A stretch of 64,000 nt of DNA, from positions 1 through 64,000 of the forward strand of contig NZ_AUDN01000021.1 in assembly GCF_000425485.1 (NCBI RefSeq), in the 5' to 3' direction. This stretch comes from Flavobacterium tegetincola DSM 22377 (GTDB lineage: Bacteria > Bacteroidota > Bacteroidia > Flavobacteriales > Flavobacteriaceae). Positions within the stretch are counted from its first letter, which is position 1. Each line of letters begins with the position of its first letter. Position numbers and translations under genes: made by a program. The notes beneath the pieces were generated by a model, which was given only the letters and a program-made list of their open reading frames with translations, made no database searches and was not told the origin of the DNA. Positions 1 to 21,237 of the stretch are shown here, piece by piece.

Positions 1-246
1 TTTTAAGATATCACGTTCTAGCGTTACTTCTCGTAATTCCTTCCTCAATGCCTTAAGTTCTTGTTCCTCTGGCGAGACGTCTCGCTTCTTAGAGAAATCA
101 CCTGATTTAGCTTCATATTCACGTCTCCAACGACGCAGCATATTGCCATTCAAGCCATACTCATCACTTACTTCCTGTACTTTTCGTCCCGAATTTAATA
201 GTTCAACCAACATAACCTTAAATTCTTGTTCATAAACTTTTGCCAT
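1..246 (-). CDS. IS3-family transposase OrfA (partial, runs off left edge)
   Basis: The reverse strand reads MAKVYEQEFKVMLVELLNSG at the N terminus, then a helix-turn-helix with GLNGNMLRRWRREYEAKSGD and a Lys/Glu-rich coiled-coil start (EEQELKALRKELREVTLERD). This is the standard OrfA layout of IS3/IS150-type elements: a DNA-binding helix-turn-helix followed by a leucine-zipper-like segment. OrfB (the DDE integrase) would be made by frameshift further along the minus strand, beyond the window. The start is the ATG complementary to 244-246. The element lies with its 5' end facing the chromosome and its terminal repeat at about 268-306. Family assignment is confident. The IS subgroup and whether the copy is intact cannot be judged. 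Confidence 0.9.
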   Translation of the reverse strand, partial: MAKVYEQEFKVMLVELLNSGRKVQEVSDEYGLNGNMLRRWRREYEAKSGDFSKKRDVSPEEQELKALRKELREVTLERDILK

Positions 247-267
247 AATTCAAATATACTATTTTAT

Positions 268-306
268 GGGCTCAATAAATTCGTCTCAGCAAAGGTAGAC
301 ACTCCA
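268..306 (-). mobile_element. Terminal inverted-repeat region of the IS3-family element
   Basis: Read on the minus strand, the segment just upstream of orfA begins TGGAGTGTCTACCTTTGCTG. It has the TG-initial tip and length expected of an IS3-family left end, and lies about 20 bp from the transposase start. The outer boundary at 306 is inferred from the terminal TG. The partner repeat and the target-site duplication are outside the window. Confidence 0.6.
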
Positions 307-379
307 AAAAGCCATAAAAAAGTGGAAGAGTAAAATTAGAATAATTGAATTAGTTAACAAAGCATTATATTTATTGCGT

Positions 380-427
380 CCCGATTCAATATCGGGAAGG
401 TCGCAGGTTCGAATCCTGCCACCCCGA
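380..427 (+). other. tRNA 3'-half remnant, possible attachment-site scar
   Basis: Positions 403-419 form a perfect T arm (GCAGG, loop TTCGAAT, CCTGC). They are followed by CACCCCG-A at 420-427, matching the 3' acceptor strand and discriminator of a tRNA, most like bacterial tRNA-Pro. No D arm and no complementary CGGGGTG 5' acceptor strand exist upstream. In their place is a palindrome, CCCGA-TTCAATA-TCGGG at about 380-396, and then AT-rich DNA. It is therefore not a complete tRNA. Such 3' halves are left when an integrative element recombines into a tRNA gene, so it may mark the edge of an island extending left past the IS. The tRNA identity is an inference. Confidence 0.6.
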
Positions 428-434
428 CTAAAAG

Positions 435-464
435 ATCCTTTCTGTTTTCAGAAGGGATTTTTTA
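435..464 (+). terminator. Intrinsic terminator after the tRNA remnant
   Basis: A 10-bp stem (ATCCTTTCTG with CAGAAGGGAT, one G-U pair), a TTTT loop and a T-run. It lies 8 bp past the tRNA 3' end, as after a genuine tRNA gene, so the right flank of the fragment is probably native chromosome. Confidence 0.7.
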
Positions 465-566
465 TTTTCAAAAGAATCGTCTTGTAATAAATTTATTACA
501 TCATTTTATCAGAAAGCAGGTTTACACATTCTAAACACGTTAGTAAAGCAAAGCAAGATTACATAA

Positions 567-602
567 AAATGCCCCAAAAAACTAATTGTTGTTTGGGGCA
601 TT
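567..602 (-). terminator. Terminator of the gene at 676-1692
   Basis: AATGCCCCAAA at 569-579 pairs with TTTGGGGCATT at 592-602. On the minus strand it is followed by a T-rich tail, so it serves the minus-strand gene ending at 676. Confidence 0.75.
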
Positions 603-675
603 ATACTTTTGATTTATGCGTAATTCGATTTTTTAAATTGAAATTAGTACCGCTTTAAATTACACCAGAATTATA

Positions 676-1692
676 TTAATCGCAGAATTTAATCGTCAAC
701 GGCTCTGAAACCAGTCTTCCGTCAATAAAATACTCAAAAACCCATTGGTCATTTTTCATAAATACTGCACCGAATTTTTGATCAATTCGAGCCTCATAAT
801 AATTCGCTTGTAATGTATTGGTTATTTTTAAAATAACTTTTGGTGTTGTATCTATCAACTGATATCCATTCTCAATCGCTTGAGCATAAAGCAGCATTCC
901 ACTAAAACTATCCTCTTTTTGAATAGCCTCTTTTTTGCTTGAATCAACTTCTGCCTTAACTTCCGCAGTAATTTGCGTGGCCTTAGACTGCTCTTTAACC
1001 GGTATTTTCACAGCAGGATTTTGCGGCACTACTTTAGGCGTCGAAACAGCAACTGTAGACGTATTTTTATTTACAACTGTTGGTTTAGCAATTTCGTCAT
1101 TATTACCTTTACTAGCAGCTTTTACTGCATCTTGTAGCGCTGATGCTACTATTTTTACTTCTGTTGACGCACTAGGGTTTTGCTGCAATGTACTTATCGC
1201 TTCTAAAGCAGGTTCAACTTTAGTGATTTCCAAAGCATTGCCATTAGTAAGTATTATTTGTCTTTTGACACCTTCGTACTTATACTTCAACAGATTTGGC
1301 GACTTTAACGCACCATCTAAAGCTGCAGTAAATGCATCATGGTGGTCCTTTTCACTACTTCCACCAATTTCAGATTGATAAATTACCGAATTATTGCAAT
1401 CCGTAAACTCGATAATAAACTTAAATAAAAAGATATTACTCTTAGGAATAACGTTCGCATTTAAAATATAACAGCGGTCACTTTCTTGTACATTTGCAAG
1501 ATCAGAGTTGTACAGCACATTGAAACCATACTCTTCCAATTGGCATTTCAAAAGTCTGTTGAGTTGGTACTCATCTGGAGTGCGTTGAAAATTGTACTTC
1601 GGACTGATCGAAACGTATTCGTAATCATTCAAGGTTTGTGCAAACGACATTACAGTGCATAAGCTGCAAAGCGCTAAAATTATCTTTTTCAT
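676..1692 (-). CDS. Secreted protein of unknown function, paralog of 2098-2814
   Basis: The start is placed at the ATG giving MKKIILALCSLCTVMSFAQ, a clean signal peptide ending at Ala-Gln; the open frame continues 13 codons upstream but that would spoil the signal. The mature N-terminal domain (about residues 20-150) has the landmarks FQRTPDEYQLNRLLK, DRCYILNANV and FTDCNNSVIYQSEIG, all with counterparts in the neighbouring paralog. A Thr/Val/Lys-rich linker (about 165-260) is much longer here, and a C-terminal 70-residue domain (GYQLIDTTPKVILKI to the end) is again shared. It is presumably periplasmic or outer-membrane associated. I do not recognise a family with known function. It is expressed with its own terminator at 567-602. 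Confidence 0.8.
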   Translation of the reverse strand: MKKIILALCSLCTVMSFAQTLNDYEYVSISPKYNFQRTPDEYQLNRLLKCQLEEYGFNVLYNSDLANVQESDRCYILNANVIPKSNIFLFKFIIEFTDCNNSVIYQSEIGGSSEKDHHDAFTAALDGALKSPNLLKYKYEGVKRQIILTNGNALEITKVEPALEAISTLQQNPSASTEVKIVASALQDAVKAASKGNNDEIAKPTVVNKNTSTVAVSTPKVVPQNPAVKIPVKEQSKATQITAEVKAEVDSSKKEAIQKEDSFSGMLLYAQAIENGYQLIDTTPKVILKITNTLQANYYEARIDQKFGAVFMKNDQWVFEYFIDGRLVSEPLTIKFCD

Positions 1693-2097
1693 ACTCATTT
1701 TCATGAAATACTCATGATTTTTTTTTGGCACAATAGGCCAAGTTATAATTAATGTAGATTTTGGGGGAGGTTAATTGGCGTATACTTTTACAAAATGTTT
1801 TTACAAAACACGAATACTAATCGCGTCGAAAAATTTATTTTCTTTCAATGATGGATGCAACTTTTCTAAAACTAATTCAATAATTTATTAGAAAATAGCA
1901 CTGCTGATTCGCAATTTGTCTTACAAGCTCTAATGGAACATAGAACTAAGTAAAAGACTACAATTGGAACCGCAAATTTTGCGCAAAAGTACTCTTAAAA
2001 ACACAATTAATAGCTATTTTGTGAAGATTTTAAAATGTAATTTGACTCGCTGAACTCTAAATTTTAGGATAGATACGTATTGTAACGGATTTAGGAT
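1693..2097. other. Intergenic region, about 400 bp, no gene seen
   Basis: AT-rich spacer between the two secreted paralogs. It holds no open frame with coding character, no strong hairpin and no repeat that I can identify. It presumably carries the promoter for the 676-1692 gene on the minus strand. Confidence 0.5.
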
Positions 2098-9410: not shown

Positions 9411-9587
9411 CATGAAACAATATTTGATTTCAAAAATACGCATTTGAGTTGAATATCATTTGGTTTTTTAAAATGTTTAGTAGTTTTCGTTGTCGCAAAT
9501 GTTGTAAATTGGCTTAGCAGAAAATGTTGTGCTGTGATTTCAACCTTCTGCCCTTTTTTGTACTCTATATCATTATACACCGGACTT

Positions 9588-12500
9588 ATGAAAAAACTTC
9601 TACTCTTCATTTTATTCTTTACATTATCATTTGGGTTTGCACAAGATTTTCAACAAGAATGGCGCGAAGTAATCCAGTTTGAATTGGACGGAAAAGTTAA
9701 ATCTGCCAGTTCATTAGTGGATGAAATTTACATAAAAGCCAAACGAAAAAATCTAGAAGATCAGATTATAAAGTGTTTTTTCTACCAATCCAAATTTCTG
9801 CAAATTCAAGACGAAAATGCGCAAACGTTGATCGTAAAAAACATTAGAGCTGAAATTGCCAATTCCAAATTTAGTAAAAAAGCGCTTCTAAGTTTTATTT
9901 ATGCTACGCTTCTCGAAAGTCACTACCAGCGAAATCAGTATGTAATAAATGCACGAACTGATTTGGAACACAACAGCTCGCTTGATTTTAATACTTGGAC
10001 TCGAAAAGATTTTGAAACTGAAATAGCCAAAATCTATACAACTTTACTAAAAGACGACAAGCAATTGCATGAAACACCGATTTTAAAATTCGGTTCTATT
10101 TTTGAAATTTCACCGTATACGGATGCTAAAAAATGGTCGGTTTATGATTTTCTTCAGGATAAATCATTGAAGTATTATTTTACAAATTTCAACGCTTTGG
10201 CAGAAAAAAAAGCGGCGAAAATCATTCCTTTGTTGCTTGCTGATGCGTCTGAATTTATAAAAATAAATGCCGACACCATTTCGAACGAGCAATTAAAAAG
10301 CATTGTAACCATTTTTCAAAATAATGAACGCTATGCTTTACAAAACAGTTTAAAAGAAATTGATGCTTTGCGCTACGAGCGGATGCATCGATTTTCAACA
10401 TTTATAAGTGACCAAAAATTGTACTTTTCCCAGCTCGAAATTTTGCGAGAAAATACAAGCGATTCCTATTTACTTCAAGATTTGAAAGTTGATTTTGCCA
10501 CTTTTTACAATTCGATAACGACGAAGGAAAGCATACAAAATTATCACCCTGAAGTTTTAGCTCTCATTGACGAGGTTTTAGATCAGAAAGAAAACCCCAA
10601 CGCAAAAGCAACTGCCGAACGGTTAAAAGAATCCCTACTTAAAAAGAGTTTGAGCATTAATCTAGCGGGTGCTTTTTATCCGTTTCAAAACTACCGCGCT
10701 TTTGTAAGTTATAAAAATGTGGATACGTTGAAAGTCAGCTATTATAAAATTCCTGTATCCGTTTTCAAGAATTTGGAGGTCACAAATGATTACAACAGAC
10801 GTGTAAGAAATGACATTTTCGATCGAGACGCTTTAGTTTCGGCTTATATTAAACAGCATCAGCCACAGAAAACTGTTGTAAAAACGCTTCCGTCCAAGAA
10901 CAATCATTTTGAATATACGACTGAAATTTTAATGGATCCTATGGATGTAGGTCAGTATTTAATTTACTTTGAAACCAAAAATCCGTATCACAAATCCAAA
11001 TCCGATTTTGCGTATAAAGTGATTCAAGTTTCTACTATTAATTTTGTGCAGCAGAAAAATAATGATTTTGATGCGTTTAATTTATTAGATCGAAAAACGG
11101 GAAAGCCTATTGAAAATGCAGTGGTCATTAATGAGAAAACTACGGTTAAATCGGACAAAACAGGAAAAGCGCGTTTTATTTTGGATTCCAAAGGATCAAC
11201 TTCTACTACTGATTTGCTTTTGATCAAAGAAAAAGATACACTTTACACTTCTTATAGTAAAAGTAAAAAATACAACACAGACGACGGCGAAAAATTGGAT
11301 TCAAAAGCAATGGTTTTTTTCGACAGAGCCATTTATCGCCCAGGGCAAAAGGTATTTTTTAAAGGCTATATGTTTCAAAATAAAAACTATTTCAAAAGTG
11401 TGGTTCCGAACCTGACTGTTCATGTCATTATTGAAGATGCAAATGGAGACGAGGTTAAAACCTTTGACATTCAAACGAATGAATTTGGCAGCTTTACGGG
11501 TGAGTATGTTATTCCGAAAAATGTGCTAACAGGCGAATTCAGCATTACGATTGAAGAGCCCGATAATTACGAGGCTGATTCAAACTATTATAACAAAAAA
11601 GAAGACGAACATTCATTTTGGGACAATGCCAACTATTCCAACTACCAAGGCTTTAAGTTTCAAGTGGAAGAATATAAACGACCGACTTTTGAAATCACTT
11701 TTGACAAAATTACAGCGAATTATACCATTGGCGATACTGTAATTATAAAAGGCAACGCCAAATCTTTGGCAGGAAGTAATTTGACAAATGTAAAAGTGGC
11801 TTACACGCTCTCAAAAAATATAGAGATGCAAGATGTTTTCAATCCTAATGAATATAAAATCGTTGAAAATGAAACGAAAACAGACGAAAAAGGTGATTTT
11901 GAAATCAAATTTGTTGCGGAATTAGAAATTGGCACAAATGCGACCGTAAACGTTATTAATTATAATTTAAATGTTTCCATCACTGATTTAAATGGCGAAA
12001 CAAGAACGGCAACTTCCCGAATCGCTGTGGGACAAGAAATGCTTAAACTCAACTGTGTCATTGAACCTGTACTTGTGCAAGAAGATCAAAATTCGATGGA
12101 AATAGTAGCTACCACTTTAAACGACTTTCCTATAAACGCCAAGGGAAGTATTACGTTTATTGAACAAAATGCGTCCGATTTTCTAATTCAAAGAGAGCGG
12201 TTTCCCGAATTGCAAAGCATCGAAAAGAAAGAATTCGAACGCTTATTTCCTTATGAAGCTTACGATAAAAAAGATATTGAAATAACTGAAAAAGAAGTTA
12301 TGACTATCAATTTTGACACTGAAAAATCTAAAGTTGTTGACTTGTCTTTTTTGAAAAAATTTAGAACTGCTAATTATAAAATTATCCTTAAAGCGAACGA
12401 TCAAAACGGAAATGAAATTGTTAGTGATCGCACCTTTGAACTCATTTCAAAAATAAAAATAGCCGATAAAAAAGAACTTTTCACTTATTCTCAAATTGAG

Positions 12501-15500
12501 TCAGATGCGTCACATTTTGTTTTTGAATTAAAATCGGTTATACCTGATTTGTACATTACAACAAGAATGTATAATGATAATAAGCAAGAATCAGAACTAG
12601 TAACTCAATTAAAAAACGGCTACGGCGTGGTGAAAATTTCGCGTAAAGCAAAATACAGGAACGATGTTCATTTTCACTTTTCAACGTTATGGGAAAACAC
12701 GTATGTAGAAGATCAGTTTTCAATTTTAAAAGACGACATCACAAATAACCTCGAATTTGAAATTGTGAGTATGCGAAATAAAGTGGAACCCGGAAGTCTC
12801 GAAAATTGGTCTTTTGTACTTAAAAATTCAAAATTGCAATCGGAAGTTTTGGCCAGCATGTATGATTCTTCTTTAGATCAGTTTACAACTAGCGATTGGA
12901 AAGTACAGGAATTTTACAAGAATAGAAATTTACCCGAAGTTATTTACCAAACTGAATATTGGTATAATAACACGATACAGTTTAGAAATTTAAGTTTTAC
13001 ATCCAGTCATTTTAAACCGTATAATCCCGATCCTGAACTCAATTGGTTTGGTTTTAATTTTACAGATCGAAGTAAATATGTCAACAAGAGTTATTTAGAA
13101 AAAGTACAAAGCATCGCTTCCATTCCGGCAAATGCTACAATGGTTTCGGGAAGTATTTTTGAAAAAGAACTTCCATTACCCGGAGCTGTTGTGATGATTC
13201 AAGGAACAACTCGTGGCGCTCAAACTGATTTTGACGGACGCTTTACCATTGCCGTTGCAAAAGGCGAAGTATTGGTCTTTAGCTATTTGGGATTCCAAAA
13301 TGAAACAGCTGTTTATAACGGTCAGAAAAATTTTAAAATTATCTTACAAGAAGATGAAAATAAACTAGAAGAAGTTGTTGTGCAAGGTTATGATGTTGTT
13401 AAAACAAAAAGAAGTTTAAGCCTTTCATCGGTAACAATTACATCGCGTCCCAATGCATCATTATTACAAACACTTCAAGGTCAAGTTGCCGGTTTAAACA
13501 TTGTAAGTAGTAGCGGCCAACCGGGAGGTAGTTCAATGATAATGATTAGAGGCGTAAGTTCTGTAAATAATGATCCATCTGAACCGTTATATGTAGTTGA
13601 TGGTGAAATTGTAACTTCAGAACAATTTAAAAATCTAAATCCTGATGATTTACAAACAGCAAGCATTTTGAAAGATGCTTCTGCAACTGCAATTTATGGA
13701 AATCGCGGAGCAAATGGCGTTTTAATTATCACCACTAAAACTGGGATGAAAGATTTGGTACAAGTTAAAACGAGAACCAACTTTAATGAAACCGCCTTCT
13801 TCTATCCAAACTTAACTACCGATTCAAAAGGAAACCTTAATTTCAGTTTTACCACTCCCGAATCTTTAACCAAGTGGCGCTTGCGGTTATTCGGTCATAA
13901 TAAAAAAGCAGAAACAGGCTATTTTCAAACGGATATTATTTCGCAGAAAGACATTATGGTCATGCCAAATATGCCGCGATTTGTACGAGAAAAAGACGAG
14001 ATTCAATTTGCAACGAAAGTTGTGAACATGACCAACGAAACGAAATCTGGAAACGCTATTTTATTGCTTTTTGATGCGGCAACCAATACCGCGATTGATT
14101 CCATTACAATGAATTCTGACAATATGAAAGTCTTTAATTGCAAAGCCAAAGAAAGTGTGGTAGTAAAATGGAACGTTAGCATTCCAGAGGGCGTTCAAGG
14201 TTTACGTTATAAAGTCATTGCAAAATCAGGAACAGTGAGCGACGGTGAAGAAAACATTTTGCCTGTTTTAACCGATAAAATTCTTATTACGGAAAGTATT
14301 CCAATTTGGGTCAAAGGAAATACGAAACGAGAATTCACAATTGAAAATCTAAAGAATAATACGTCAACGACTTTGCAAAATCATGCGTTGACTTTTGAAT
14401 ATACGTCCAATCCGGTGTGGATTGCCTTACAATCGCTACCGTATTTGATGACGTATGAACACGAATGTTCCGAACAAGTTTTTGCAAAATATTACGCCAA
14501 TTGTATTGCAGAAAAAATCATTTCAAGCCATCCGCAAATTGAGCATTTATTCAAAAAATGGCATGACGACAAATCTGTTGTTTCGAAATTAGAGATGAAT
14601 GAAGAATTGAAGTCAATTGTACTCGCAGAAACACCTTGGTTATTAGACACCGAATCAGATGCGGAGAAGAATAAGCGATTGGCAGTTTTGATGGATTTGA
14701 ATACATTAAAGCAGAACAATACTGATACGTTTAAAAAACTAGAAGATAAAATGTTAGCGAGTGGCGGTTTTCCTTGGTTTAGCGGTGGAACGGAAGACCG
14801 ATTTATTTCGCAACACATTTTGGCTGGAATTGGGCATTTGAATCAACTATTTCCTACAGACAGTTTGAAATATAAAACAATTGTTTCGAAAGGAATTCCG
14901 AATTTAGACCATAAGTTTGTTGCAAATAATTCTAAAAAAGAAAAAATAGATCGTCCGTCTACTTTAGATCTAAATTACTTATATACACGAAGTTTTTATT
15001 TGAAAAATTATCCTTTTGAGACCAAAACAGATTCACTAATTCAGTTGCAATTGAAACAATGCAAAACAGATTGGCTTTCTTATTCATTGTACGAAAAAGG
15101 TTTGTTAGCCTTAATTATGAATCGTTTTAATGAAAAGGATTTTGCCCAAAAAGTAATTACAAGTCTAAAAGAAACGGTTTCAAATAATGATGAGATTGGC
15201 ATGTATTGGATTGAAAATAATTCGGGTTACGGTTGGTATCAGTCTAGTATTGCAACACAAGCTTTATTGATTGAGGCTTTCGCCGAAATTGATAAAGACA
15301 AGGAAACAATTGACGCAATGAAAGTTTGGCTGATTAAAAACAAGCAAACCAATCGTTGGTCTTCTACAAAATCCACCACTGAAGCCGTTTTTGCATTAAT
15401 GAATCAAGGAAGTGATTGGACTTCGCTGAAAGAAAATACTAAAATTGAAATTGGAGACGAGAAACTATTTACACAAAAAACTTCGAATAAAGAGGACGAA

Positions 15501-16079
15501 CAAAATGCAGGTTATTTAAAAATCCACTATAAATCAGAAGAAATAACTCCAGAAATGGGCAGTATTTCTATAGAAAACAAATCAGATGTTCCGGGTTTTG
15601 GTGGTTTGTATTGGCAGTATTTTGAGTCTTTAGCAATCATCAAGAAAGATTCGACTCAAACCATTTCCATTGATAAAAAGTTGTTCAAAAAAGTCACCAC
15701 CTCAAAAGGAGAAGAATTGATTGCGATTACAAATGAAACCTTGAAAGTGGGCGATCTATTGACGGTTCGCTTGATAATTAAAACGGAAAATGATTTGGAA
15801 TTCGTTCATTTAAAAGACTTACGAGCTTCGTGTTTAGAACCTGTTGATGTGATTTCAAAACATGAATGGAAAGGAAATTTCAGTTACTACAAAAGCACAA
15901 AAGACGTTTCCACGAACTTCTTTTTCGACCGATTGCAAAAAGGAACTTACGTTTTAGAATACGATTTAAGAGTGACCAATCAAGGAAATTTCAATAATGG
16001 AATTTCGACTTTGCAAAGTATGTATGCTCCGGAATTTTCGGCACATTCTGAAAATAGTAAAGTGATAGTAAAAGAGTAA
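9588..16079 (+). CDS. Alpha-2-macroglobulin family protein with embedded SusC-type TonB plug domain
   Basis: A 2163-residue secreted protein. The start is set at MKKLLLFILFFTLSFGFAQ, a signal peptide; an upstream in-frame ATG lacks support. Macroglobulin domains follow: MG2 near residue 576 (FFDRAIYRPGQKVFFKGYMF), MG3/4 near 696 (EEYKRPTFEITF). At about 1185-1265 lies a carboxypeptidase-regulatory-like domain (GAVVMIQGTTRGAQTDFDGR). At about 1275-1385 comes a TonB-receptor plug with the SusC/RagA signature (PLYVVDGEIV, ILKDASATAIYGNRGANGV). The macroglobulin then resumes (NETAFFYPNLTTDSKGNLNF) with the thioester site ECSEQ at Cys1627. No receptor barrel follows the plug. It probably acts in the periplasm or at the outer membrane as a protease trap. 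It converges on the S46 gene through a shared terminator. Confidence 0.92.
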   Translation: MKKLLLFILFFTLSFGFAQDFQQEWREVIQFELDGKVKSASSLVDEIYIKAKRKNLEDQIIKCFFYQSKFLQIQDENAQTLIVKNIRAEIANSKFSKKALLSFIYATLLESHYQRNQYVINARTDLEHNSSLDFNTWTRKDFETEIAKIYTTLLKDDKQLHETPILKFGSIFEISPYTDAKKWSVYDFLQDKSLKYYFTNFNALAEKKAAKIIPLLLADASEFIKINADTISNEQLKSIVTIFQNNERYALQNSLKEIDALRYERMHRFSTFISDQKLYFSQLEILRENTSDSYLLQDLKVDFATFYNSITTKESIQNYHPEVLALIDEVLDQKENPNAKATAERLKESLLKKSLSINLAGAFYPFQNYRAFVSYKNVDTLKVSYYKIPVSVFKNLEVTNDYNRRVRNDIFDRDALVSAYIKQHQPQKTVVKTLPSKNNHFEYTTEILMDPMDVGQYLIYFETKNPYHKSKSDFAYKVIQVSTINFVQQKNNDFDAFNLLDRKTGKPIENAVVINEKTTVKSDKTGKARFILDSKGSTSTTDLLLIKEKDTLYTSYSKSKKYNTDDGEKLDSKAMVFFDRAIYRPGQKVFFKGYMFQNKNYFKSVVPNLTVHVIIEDANGDEVKTFDIQTNEFGSFTGEYVIPKNVLTGEFSITIEEPDNYEADSNYYNKKEDEHSFWDNANYSNYQGFKFQVEEYKRPTFEITFDKITANYTIGDTVIIKGNAKSLAGSNLTNVKVAYTLSKNIEMQDVFNPNEYKIVENETKTDEKGDFEIKFVAELEIGTNATVNVINYNLNVSITDLNGETRTATSRIAVGQEMLKLNCVIEPVLVQEDQNSMEIVATTLNDFPINAKGSITFIEQNASDFLIQRERFPELQSIEKKEFERLFPYEAYDKKDIEITEKEVMTINFDTEKSKVVDLSFLKKFRTANYKIILKANDQNGNEIVSDRTFELISKIKIADKKELFTYSQIESDASHFVFELKSVIPDLYITTRMYNDNKQESELVTQLKNGYGVVKISRKAKYRNDVHFHFSTLWENTYVEDQFSILKDDITNNLEFEIVSMRNKVEPGSLENWSFVLKNSKLQSEVLASMYDSSLDQFTTSDWKVQEFYKNRNLPEVIYQTEYWYNNTIQFRNLSFTSSHFKPYNPDPELNWFGFNFTDRSKYVNKSYLEKVQSIASIPANATMVSGSIFEKELPLPGAVVMIQGTTRGAQTDFDGRFTIAVAKGEVLVFSYLGFQNETAVYNGQKNFKIILQEDENKLEEVVVQGYDVVKTKRSLSLSSVTITSRPNASLLQTLQGQVAGLNIVSSSGQPGGSSMIMIRGVSSVNNDPSEPLYVVDGEIVTSEQFKNLNPDDLQTASILKDASATAIYGNRGANGVLIITTKTGMKDLVQVKTRTNFNETAFFYPNLTTDSKGNLNFSFTTPESLTKWRLRLFGHNKKAETGYFQTDIISQKDIMVMPNMPRFVREKDEIQFATKVVNMTNETKSGNAILLLFDAATNTAIDSITMNSDNMKVFNCKAKESVVVKWNVSIPEGVQGLRYKVIAKSGTVSDGEENILPVLTDKILITESIPIWVKGNTKREFTIENLKNNTSTTLQNHALTFEYTSNPVWIALQSLPYLMTYEHECSEQVFAKYYANCIAEKIISSHPQIEHLFKKWHDDKSVVSKLEMNEELKSIVLAETPWLLDTESDAEKNKRLAVLMDLNTLKQNNTDTFKKLEDKMLASGGFPWFSGGTEDRFISQHILAGIGHLNQLFPTDSLKYKTIVSKGIPNLDHKFVANNSKKEKIDRPSTLDLNYLYTRSFYLKNYPFETKTDSLIQLQLKQCKTDWLSYSLYEKGLLALIMNRFNEKDFAQKVITSLKETVSNNDEIGMYWIENNSGYGWYQSSIATQALLIEAFAEIDKDKETIDAMKVWLIKNKQTNRWSSTKSTTEAVFALMNQGSDWTSLKENTKIEIGDEKLFTQKTSNKEDEQNAGYLKIHYKSEEITPEMGSISIENKSDVPGFGGLYWQYFESLAIIKKDSTQTISIDKKLFKKVTTSKGEELIAITNETLKVGDLLTVRLIIKTENDLEFVHLKDLRASCLEPVDVISKHEWKGNFSYYKSTKDVSTNFFFDRLQKGTYVLEYDLRVTNQGNFNNGISTLQSMYAPEFSAHSENSKVIVKE

Positions 16080-18651: not shown

Positions 18652-18944
18652 AACAAAAAACCCGAAAGCACAAACTTTCGGGTTTTCTATATAATAATAA
18701 AATTGAATTACTTCACAATCGTCATTTCATCAATAATGTGTTTTGCACCAGCATATTTGTCGATAATCCAAAGTACGTAACGAATATCTACGTTAATTGT
18801 TCTTTGTAATTTCGGGTCAAAAATAACGTCACCTGCCATAGCTTCGATGTTTCCGTCAAAGGCAAGACCGATTAATTCTCCTTTTCCGTTCAATACGGGC
18901 GAACCTGAATTTCCACCTGTAATGTCGTTATCCGTTAAGAAATT
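18652..18944 (-). repeat. Copy B: intact S46 3' end and terminator
   Basis: The counterpart of 16078-16372. It contains the same terminator, the true stop codon of the S46 gene and its last codons. The two direct copies bracket the two-gene cassette. Confidence 0.93.
18657..18686. terminator. Terminator between the cassette and the S46 gene (copy B)
   Basis: AAAACCCGAAAG (18657-18668) pairs with CTTTCGGGTTTT (18675-18686). A/T-rich flanks on both sides make it usable by the membrane-protein gene on the plus strand and the S46 gene on the minus strand. Confidence 0.88.
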
Positions 18945-20861
18945 TACCGGCATGAAACCTGCTTTATCAGCATATTGACCGTAGTCTTTTGCTTTGTTCA
19001 TTTCGATGATTTTGGTTGGCATATCAAATTCGGCATCGCCTTTTTTGTATTTCTTTACCATTCCGTCCATCGTGGTGTAATTGTTGATTTTTGCATCGTT
19101 ACGTTTGTCCGCTGGCAAAGCTCTTACTTTACCGTAAGTCAACCGCAAAGTTGAATTGGCATCTGGATACTGAATTGCATTCAATTTAGACTCTCTCAAA
19201 CCTTCCACTAATAATCTAAATGACTTTTGAAAATCATTTTCCATAGCTCCCAATTCTGGCGATTTTGCACGGTATTGGTTCAATAAATCCGTTGAAATTT
19301 GATACAATGGATCATTTTTAACCACTTCTGCATCTGGATTCTTCATAAACTCCTCCACTGCTTCTCTACTTGAAAAAATACTTTTCTCCGTAGCGTTATT
19401 TACAAATTGCGTAAAATCACCACCGTTTTCAGCACTTAATTTAGCAACCATTGAAGGCAAACCATAAGCAGCTCCTTTTTTTGCATACAAATTCATTTGA
19501 GCAGCAAAAACATCTCTTTCTAATGGAGCATAAAACTCACCGTAATAATTTTCCAAAGCCCCTTGAAGTCTTGGCAACATTTCTGCTCTTTTTGCTTCAT
19601 TTTCGCCAGCATAAGCAATCAAACCATTTCCTAAGTTAGCTGGTAAAACACTATAAGTAGCCGTTCTCAACGCTTGCATCAAATAACTATCGTGACCTGA
19701 CTTTAAATCTGTAGCTGCGTAATATTTATTGATTGTAGAAAGTACGTTTCCGTATTTTTCTTTATTTGCTGATTTGTTTGCCCATTTGTCAAATTTAACT
19801 TCCTGACCTGCTTTGGTTTTTGCTGTTCCAAATTTAGTCAAAGCATCAATCATTCCTTGACGGTTTTTCCAGTAGTTTGCAGTAGATGCAAATTTAGAAG
19901 CATACATTAAGTTTACTTTTTCGTCTACTTTCATGTATTTCTTCATGTTGTCCATACCCGTTTTAGCACCTTCAACCCAAGCAGGGTAAGCATACTTTAC
20001 GTTCTGGTCAATTCCACCCGCCGGCATCCAACGGTTTGTTCTTCCTGGATAACCTAAAATCATAGCAAAATCATTTTCTTGAACACCTTTCAAACTTACA
20101 GGCAAATGGTGTTTTGGTTCCAAAGGCACGTTATCCGCAGCGTATTCTGCAGGATTTCCGTCTTTATCCGCATATACTCTAAACAGAGAGAAGTCGCCTG
20201 TGTGACGCGGCCATTCCCAGTTGTCTGTGTCGCCACCAAATTTTCCAACACTCTCTGGAGGCGTACCTACTAAACGAACGTCTGTGTAATCTTGATATAC
20301 AAAATAGTAGTACTCATTTCCTTGAAAAAACGGACGAACAGAAACGGTATATTTTCCACCGCCGTCATTTTCTTTCTGGATTTTTGCCATTTCTTGATTT
20401 AAAGCTTTTTCACGCTCTAATTCAGTCATTTTGTCGTTTACAACGGCTAACATTCTTTTAGAAACATCGTCCATACGTACAAAAAATCGAACGTATAGTG
20501 ACTTTGGTTTCATCTCGTCTTTTTTGGTAGCTGCCCAAAAACCATTTTTCAAGTAGTTTTGTTCTTCGCTTGAAAGTTCTGCGATCGCATCGTATCCACA
20601 GTGGTGGTTTGTTAAAACCAACCCTTGGCTTGAAACCATTTCAGCAGTACAACCGCCGTTAAATTGAACGATTGCGTCTTTCAAACTTGAATTGTTAACG
20701 CTATAAATTTCCTCTGCAGTCAATTGAAGACCCATTTTCTGCATATCTCTGTGATTCAAACGTTCGATGAACATTAAAAACCACATTCCTTCATCGGCCT
20801 TAACCGTTGCCGGCATTACCATTATCGAAAGGGTAACGAATAAAATAATTTTTTTAAACAT
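18708..20861 (-). CDS. S46 family dipeptidyl-peptidase, DPP7-type
   Basis: A 717-residue periplasmic serine peptidase. The start is chosen at MFKKIILFVTLSIMVMPATV, a signal peptide; the frame extends 13 codons upstream. Catalytic residues of family S46 are visible: His in LVLTNHHCGYDAI, Asp in the FGGDTDNWEWPRHTGDF region, and Ser in [14 protein letters not shown]. Eighteen residues after the Ser is Gly in [10 protein letters not shown]. In characterised S46 enzymes Gly here goes with DPP7 specificity (hydrophobic P1) and Arg with DPP11 (acidic P1). It supplies dipeptides from oligopeptides for uptake. The 3' end is duplicated at 16136-16372. Confidence 0.95.
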   Translation of the reverse strand: MFKKIILFVTLSIMVMPATVKADEGMWFLMFIERLNHRDMQKMGLQLTAEEIYSVNNSSLKDAIVQFNGGCTAEMVSSQGLVLTNHHCGYDAIAELSSEEQNYLKNGFWAATKKDEMKPKSLYVRFFVRMDDVSKRMLAVVNDKMTELEREKALNQEMAKIQKENDGGGKYTVSVRPFFQGNEYYYFVYQDYTDVRLVGTPPESVGKFGGDTDNWEWPRHTGDFSLFRVYADKDGNPAEYAADNVPLEPKHHLPVSLKGVQENDFAMILGYPGRTNRWMPAGGIDQNVKYAYPAWVEGAKTGMDNMKKYMKVDEKVNLMYASKFASTANYWKNRQGMIDALTKFGTAKTKAGQEVKFDKWANKSANKEKYGNVLSTINKYYAATDLKSGHDSYLMQALRTATYSVLPANLGNGLIAYAGENEAKRAEMLPRLQGALENYYGEFYAPLERDVFAAQMNLYAKKGAAYGLPSMVAKLSAENGGDFTQFVNNATEKSIFSSREAVEEFMKNPDAEVVKNDPLYQISTDLLNQYRAKSPELGAMENDFQKSFRLLVEGLRESKLNAIQYPDANSTLRLTYGKVRALPADKRNDAKINNYTTMDGMVKKYKKGDAEFDMPTKIIEMNKAKDYGQYADKAGFMPVNFLTDNDITGGNSGSPVLNGKGELIGLAFDGNIEAMAGDVIFDPKLQRTINVDIRYVLWIIDKYAGAKHIIDEMTIVK

Positions 20862-21237
20862 GTGTATGTTAATTAAATAGTTAGTGTTTTGCAAGTACAA
20901 GATAACTTGTTTTTTGCGGTGCTAATATATGACATCTAAATAAGTTGAAATACTTTATCGATTGCAAACTAACTCGTTTGCGTAGTTTTTAACTTTTCTT
21001 TTAGAAATTTTTGCCGATAGGGAATATGCATCGGTGTTCAAATGTAATTTCGCTTAAGAATTTTTCTGGTTCTGGTTTAAAAAATTGGCTCGCAAAGTCG
21101 CAAAGAAAAGCAGCTCGAACTTCACGTCCTTGCGGGATAAAAAAATTTAATGTTAAAATAGAAATCATGAAGTATTATATCACACTCAAGCCACAAATGA
21201 TAACATTTCAAACTCTGCATATTTGCGAGCTAGAAAA
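20862..21237. other. Intergenic region, about 375 bp, upstream of S46 and downstream of menC
   Basis: No coding frame of credible composition. The middle (about 21080-21145) contains GC-richer debris with CGCAAAGTCGCAAAG and CTTCACGTCCTTGCGGG, a type of dispersed sequence often seen between Flavobacterium genes. The S46 promoter should lie at 20862-20960 on the minus strand; no clear TAnnTTTG element was found there. Confidence 0.5.

Follow-up and report, generated by a model that had tools for sequence, protein, structure and literature searches.

In A2M-family proteins, the linker and the bait region form a single insert within domain MG6, at the place where complement proteins carry the anaphylatoxin domain (PMC9156758, excerpts). 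The bait of A2ML1 is flexible, with about 30 residues left unmodelled, and the Arg that lies C-terminal to the cleavage site, Arg730 in A2ML1, shows high conservation, as does Phe733 (PMC9156758, excerpts). The bacterial homolog ECAM has an intrinsically disordered bait and carries an anchor to the inner membrane (PMC4498604, excerpts). The open-licence literature yielded no report joining a macroglobulin or a bait region with a plug domain or a TonB-dependent receptor, Bacteroidetes included, and on an alpha-2-macroglobulin bait in Flavobacterium it yielded one paper, on trout plasma.

The alpha-macroglobulin described here is encoded by Flavobacterium tegetincola DSM 22377 within a stretch of 64,000 nucleotides (contig NZ_AUDN01000021.1, positions 1 to 64,000 of the forward strand), referred to below as the window. 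Its open reading frame occupies 9534-16079 (+), and the likely start, an ATG at 9588, gives a protein of 2163 residues (Table 1). MG2, A2M, and bMG10 all score above their Pfam cut-offs, which identifies the protein as a macroglobulin, and the PF00207 match at 1402-1486 begins at the first position of the profile. The thioester CSEQ, taken as intact in a sequence-only reading of this DNA, is indeed found at residues 1627-1630, and CxEQ occurs in the expected stretch of 162 of the 193 related sequences with both bait anchors. A simple pattern test detected no lipobox at the protein start, as would be needed for an inner-membrane lipoprotein anchor like that of ECAM; by the same test, none of 48 full-length sequences (this protein included) has one, 47 being without and one undecided. 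We infer a periplasmic location of the macroglobulin. An S46 family peptidase gene (window 18708-20900, -) is the third open reading frame of at least 100 residues downstream, on the opposite strand.

Table 1. Features of the macroglobulin gene, in window coordinates.
Feature	Position	Strand	Basis
Alpha-macroglobulin gene, 2163 aa	9588..16079	+	ORF list, Pfam; signal-peptide-like start, without lipobox
MG2 domain, residues 574-662	11307..11573	+	Pfam PF01835, E 3.4e-17
Split MG domain (human MG6 / bacterial MG8), first half, about residues 1051-1100	12738..12887	+	Model versus 4rtd and 4u4j; alignment starts at about residue 1050-1051, end approximate, from model strands
Hypervariable bait slot between two conserved anchors, residues 1159-1397	13062..13778	+	Comparison of relatives
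SusC N-terminal extension (NTE; CarbopepD_reg_2), residues 1186-1265	13143..13382	+	Pfam E 1.1e-15; fold match 9hfj Z 14.7
TonB-box-like stretch LEEVVVQGY, residues 1260-1268	13365..13391	+	Aligned with equivalent stretch of SusC 8aa4
TonB-dependent receptor plug domain, residues 1279-1378	13422..13721	+	Pfam Plug E 8.5e-13
SusC/RagA signature, residues 1356-1384	13653..13739	+	TIGR04057, over cut-off
Arg1396, counterpart of the conserved post-bait Arg of A2M-family proteins	13773..13775	+	Alignment
A2M domain PF00207, residues 1402-1486 (split MG domain second half and onward)	13791..14045	+	Pfam
Thioester motif CSEQ, residues 1627-1630	14466..14477	+	Motif search
C-terminal MG domain bMG10, residues 2027-2149	15666..16034	+	Pfam

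The insert consists of a CarbopepD_reg_2 domain, a TonB-box-like stretch, and a plug domain, in the order of SusC/RagA receptors. The sequence-only reading had seen a carboxypeptidase-regulatory-like domain and a plug at about residues 1185-1385; Pfam, NCBIfam, and PDB alignments agree and set the limits at 1186-1384. The NCBIfam model SusC_RagA_signa scored 50.5 bits at 1356-1384 (cut-off 46.2), the insert aligned to the SusC homolog 8aa4 over 1186-1399 and to RagA 6sli over 1192-1401, and the motifs VVDGEIV and LKDASATAIYGNRGANG of the plug signature as well as the segment NETAFFYPNL are all present in the translation. The TonB-box-like stretch may be compared with the TonB box of BT1763, VDEVVV (PMC7782687, excerpts). 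The absence of a receptor barrel behind the plug, likewise noted earlier, was borne out by Pfam and by the SusC family model TIGR04056, which matched only over positions 3-220 of its 981 (244.9 against a cut-off of 368.25); the A2M domain comes next and the macroglobulin resumes. Of the 29 plug matches in this genome, the present one alone falls in a macroglobulin-length frame, the other 28 being in frames of 650-1045 residues, and the insert is 56% identical to a SusC on contig 4 of the same genome (57% over 191 residues in a second comparison). Since A2M domains lie on either side of the insert, a SusC receptor that has shed its barrel was ruled out.

The profile of the post-insert half aligned to human A2M 7voo_A 705-850 from VRKYFPET (weakly, E 0.0017) and to 6tav_A 731-876, with C5, CD109, and ECAM aligned further on. 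The equivalent of Arg1396 is Arg in every one of the 198 distinct sequences, the present protein among them, and was the sole invariant column in each of two bait alignments; three residues past it, Leu is found in 153 and Phe in 41 of the 198. In an AlphaFold model of residues 1039-1510 (mean pLDDT 65.7), both flanks of the insert fold into one domain, which matched ECAM 4rtd 855..1020 (105 residues over 13..417, Z 10.9, rmsd 2.2) and Salmonella 4u4j 846..1012 (Z 11.0, rmsd 2.3), scores not far above the Z of 8.8 that unrelated Ig-like folds (protocadherins) reach on the same residues. The bait residues 923-942 of ECAM, which are unmodelled, fall within 4rtd 855..1020 (PMC4498604, excerpts). 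Judging from the A2M alignment, the conserved Arg, and the one-domain model together, the insert splits MG6 (bacterial MG8) at the bait, and its occupation of the bait-region position is well supported. The sequence-only reading had placed the plug at the bait position on the MG6/MG7 border; the bait position stands, but the border does not, since the predicted structure has the flanks form a single domain (human MG6) like the bait-bearing MG domain of ECAM. The profile of the pre-insert half found no macroglobulin in the PDB, and the first half of the split domain is therefore placed by the model; a full-length profile search had its best stretches in macroglobulin entries within 376-805, not reaching the bait. 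Within the insert, the NTE is predicted to be well folded (pLDDT 90-96), the TonB-box region and the linkers have pLDDT below 50, and the plug is middling (52-83, ten-residue means).

Within the genus, 118 of 299 genomes gave matches to the C-terminal 765 residues, and within the family 156 of 299 did. The 198 distinct sequences were extracted from fetched loci, which are the top matches by score, with no more than 30 taken from each search, together with hand-chosen stretches, and the shares given below refer to these loci, not to all genomes. To assess SusC content, five models, each for one segment of the SusC module, were applied with a threshold of 8 bits, for which shuffled baits gave at most 1 match in 965 per segment and the core control none. 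SusC segments were found in 145 of the 165 baits of the order Flavobacteriales (Flavobacterium, 99/106; other Flavobacteriaceae, 37/48; other families of the order, 9/11) and were missing at this threshold from 20. Outside the order none of 28 baits reached 8 bits, the one match being of 7.8 bits in locus L159; a few of these baits look TonB-box-like by eye and were left out of the counts.

Many baits carry only pieces of the SusC module, and a few carry them permuted: among the 119 multi-piece baits seen at a threshold of 6 bits, 9 break the SusC order or repeat a segment, as with a plug piece ahead of the TonB box. In a Pfam survey of macroglobulins with and without the plug (E 0.01; 192 baits in sets of 86 and 106, this bait included), CarbopepD_reg_2 was found in 93 (24 and 69), Plug in 86 (12 and 74), and TSP_3 in one, and no receptor-barrel family was among the 12 families listed per scan. 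Everything else was weaker (best E 1.8e-5) and fell mostly in Ig-like families, where we take the NTE fold to be cross-matching, or consisted of single matches. Because the same architecture recurs in this way in many genomes, an assembly or annotation fusion is ruled out. The macroglobulins from the remaining families of the order, 11 in all (L119, L120, and nine loci in L190-L205), lack CxEQ without exception, and 9 of their baits carry SusC pieces; SusC pieces in a bait thus need no covalent trap.

Two of the relatives deserve separate mention. The bait of L203 (1225-1488, +; located by eye) carries a thrombospondin type 3 repeat (Pfam E 1.1e-4; one of 86 baits) beside a plug piece. Such repeats are also found in OmpA-like linkers, and the bait may therefore draw on other envelope proteins too. 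Locus L207 encodes, at 301-1860 (+), a macroglobulin that belongs to a different family within the order; CarboxypepD_reg was detected at the same place in it (E 3.9e-7, just below the cut-off) with only a weak plug match (E 0.61); this insert is possibly a separate capture, perhaps from a non-SusC receptor.

When the insert was compared with the genome collection, 78 of the best 80 of 457 confirmed stretches lay in receptor-length frames (746-1099 residues) and two in macroglobulins. With 79 modules from macroglobulins and 149 from SusC (228 rows), the tree needed 18 changes. A more careful tree of 43 rows, hand-picked from these modules with sister rows favoured, needed 13 macroglobulin/SusC changes, at least 10 of them on starred branches, and a single macroglobulin clade was seen in 0% of 200 bootstrap trees. 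In the same tree 132-141 of 500 label shuffles were as low, so that the label is not clustered; this fits many captures, yet is partly owed to the choice of sister rows. Macroglobulin and SusC modules of one genome were sisters in G024 (100/98), G074 (100/79), and G042 (92/81, on a long branch), while the insert under study has no starred close partner and its nearest rows are SusC. The macroglobulin copy had the longer branch in all of eight hand-picked macroglobulin/SusC pairs, some of them not strict sisters, from 0.78 versus 0.72 to 1.55 versus 0.01. The bait slot of Flavobacteriales macroglobulins has therefore been refilled, repeatedly and independently, with SusC N-terminal modules or pieces of them. 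One ancient capture followed by decay is ruled out by the 43-row tree, the permuted pieces, and the dN/dS of 0.22 given below. In L139 (G074), the nearest relative by core, the gene is frame-shifted near residues 558-591, possibly as a pseudogene or through faulty assembly.

Among 42 independent pairs whose cores share 85% identity or more, the median identity was 91% for the core (that is, the C-terminal half, which appears homogenised in tandem copies), 56% for the bait, and 77% for the 150 residues upstream, and the bait was below the core in 41 of the 42. The variability is not limited to the bait, because divergence extends to the N-terminal half in all three pairs that were traced from end to end. 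Between L316 and L324 the cores are 98% identical and the 3' half of the bait is almost unchanged, whereas its 5' half differs, with dS of 1.33 upstream and 0.14 in the core, and a recombination breakpoint is thus placed inside the bait; in L203 and L205 the bait is identical while the core is only 92%. Two or three closely spaced macroglobulin genes with differing baits were seen in L121, L133, L134, L135, and L152. The copies in L121 mostly share 92-100% identity in the thioester half but not in the bait or in most of the N-terminal half, which suggests gene conversion among the copies. Retained SusC modules are under purifying selection, with a median dN/dS of 0.22 (core, 0.08) in 8 pairs filtered for low divergence, few gaps, and no sign of recombination.

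The reading that we prefer, at a probability of about 0.55, is that the protein is a periplasmic thioester trap whose bait has been rebuilt repeatedly from the periplasm-facing N-terminal part of the cell's SusC/RagA receptors. Judging from sequence, the SusC module plausibly acts as the protease bait. A protease entering the periplasm would cut the exposed linker, the TonB box, or the barrel-less plug; the segment ending at Arg1396 would be set free and the macroglobulin would collapse, after which the CSEQ thioester would bind the protease. A plug without its barrel would make a reasonable bait, and SusC pieces may have been favoured as a self-decoy that resembles protease targets in the cell's own envelope. 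Against the bait reading, the NTE is predicted to be well folded, unlike the usual disordered bait. The baits without SusC segments, the SusC pieces in proteins that lack CxEQ or are no macroglobulins, the divergent N-terminal half, the identical baits of L203 and L205, and the modest structural and A2M sequence matches also weigh against it. A bolder version of the same idea, which we advance only tentatively, is a self-templated switching bait, with SusC genes as donors whose N-terminal modules are recombined repeatedly into the slot in an arms race with periplasm-invading proteases; if true, the switching trap would always show what proteases encounter in the cell's own envelope.

The insert might instead serve TonB docking, its TonB box binding TonB so that the trap is brought to the TonB complex or to working receptors, or is pulled on by TonB, with the bait role secondary or absent. 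Despite the divergence of the insert elsewhere, the SusC-invariant residues of the TonB box are kept in macroglobulins as in SusC (0.92 versus 0.92), and among the five segments it is found most often in other Flavobacteriaceae (28/48) and in other families of the order (6/11). However, the comparison covers two invariant columns only and the NTE is nearly as well kept (0.93 versus 0.96, 8 columns), the box is absent at 8 bits from 45 of 106 Flavobacterium baits, where the plug signature is commonest (94/106), and a trap presumably has to remain soluble and free to collapse. Retention of the TonB box keeps docking in consideration, but we regard it as unlikely.

Another explanation, which we likewise think unlikely, is that the slot takes any in-frame insertion and that SusC genes, being abundant, are the usual donors, their identity having no function. 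The 29 plug matches in this genome represent many potential donors, several unrelated proteins also hold SusC pieces (see below), and outside the order baits have a median length of only 91 residues, show no SusC segments at threshold, and look low-complexity by eye. The barrel, however, makes up about four fifths of SusC and is nearly absent: BLAST of the baits against 79 full SusC proteins gave 9818 matches to the N-terminal module (139 baits) and 6 to the barrel (2 baits, E 0.003-0.01), in a set which, like the SusC rows of the trees, came largely from searches with this or a similar insert, so that pieces and barrels of other SusC types could be missed. This avoidance of the barrel and the constraint on what is retained, seen both in the purifying selection and in the SusC-invariant residues kept in the NTE and TonB box, disfavour mere donor abundance. 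The proposal of the sequence-only reading that the plug anchors the trap to a TonB-dependent channel, seated in a receptor barrel and tethering it to the outer membrane, is unsupported and very improbable: the modelled plug has a plug-like fold (6zlt_B, Z 9.1, rmsd 3.3, 105 aligned) and the family matches of this protein are intact, but the plug has lost the most SusC-invariant residues (0.80 versus 0.96 kept, 23 columns), the partial or, in a few relatives, permuted pieces could hardly plug a barrel, and SusC barrels already carry their own plug in cis.

The recruitment of SusC is not specific to baits, because SusC pieces occur in other Flavobacterium proteins. By eye, a family of about 400 residues (L419 277-1467 (-), L420, L421, and L424, with a variant in L422) carries a plug-signature-like piece followed by the NTE, the reverse of the SusC order; in the L419 protein, the one member scanned, Pfam detected the NTE alone. 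Encoded just upstream of this family, or of the L425 protein described next, proteins of about 260-350 residues (L419 1471-2409 (-), L420, L421, L424, and L425) have a plug-signature-like C-terminal end and are perhaps anti-sigma-like, again by eye; the one from L419, the only one scanned, had no Pfam match. A YfbK/VWA protein (L425 886-2850, +) has an NTE by Pfam; a TonB-box-like stretch close to the N-terminus can also be made out by eye. Pieces of the SusC N-terminal module thus exist in non-receptor proteins.

To our knowledge, the target choice of bacterial macroglobulins and the reason for bait variation are largely open. In most examined members of one order the bait slot has been filled, repeatedly, from one recognisable source, the TonB receptors, and the origin, turnover, and specificity of the bait can thereby be put to the test in Flavobacterium. 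The source may also be a clue to what the traps protect.

Like the macroglobulin insert, the YfbK/VWA protein of L425 (N-terminal NTE) and the 397-residue L419 protein (NTE) are non-receptor Flavobacterium proteins with pieces of the SusC N-terminal module, but no macroglobulin domain was found in them, and the pieces do not sit at a bait site. SusC/RagA receptors such as BT1763 share the order of NTE, TonB box, and plug, and TIGR04057 scores over its cut-off here, whereas the module of this protein lacks the barrel and is set inside a macroglobulin domain. ECAM (YfhM of E. coli; 4rtd, 4ziq) belongs to the same superfamily, with an insert in the counterpart of its bait-bearing MG domain and a CxEQ motif in common; the slot described here differs in spanning 239 residues and holding receptor domains, and the lipobox pattern was not detected. 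Human A2M and A2ML1 likewise have the bait within MG6, followed by the conserved Arg that aligns with Arg1396, but the animal bait holds no captured domain. The anaphylatoxin of complement is a signalling domain. Complement C3, C4, and C5 resemble our protein in that this domain stands in place of the bait at the same MG6 site (PMC9156758, excerpts), while the domains in the Flavobacterium slot derive from SusC and were captured repeatedly.
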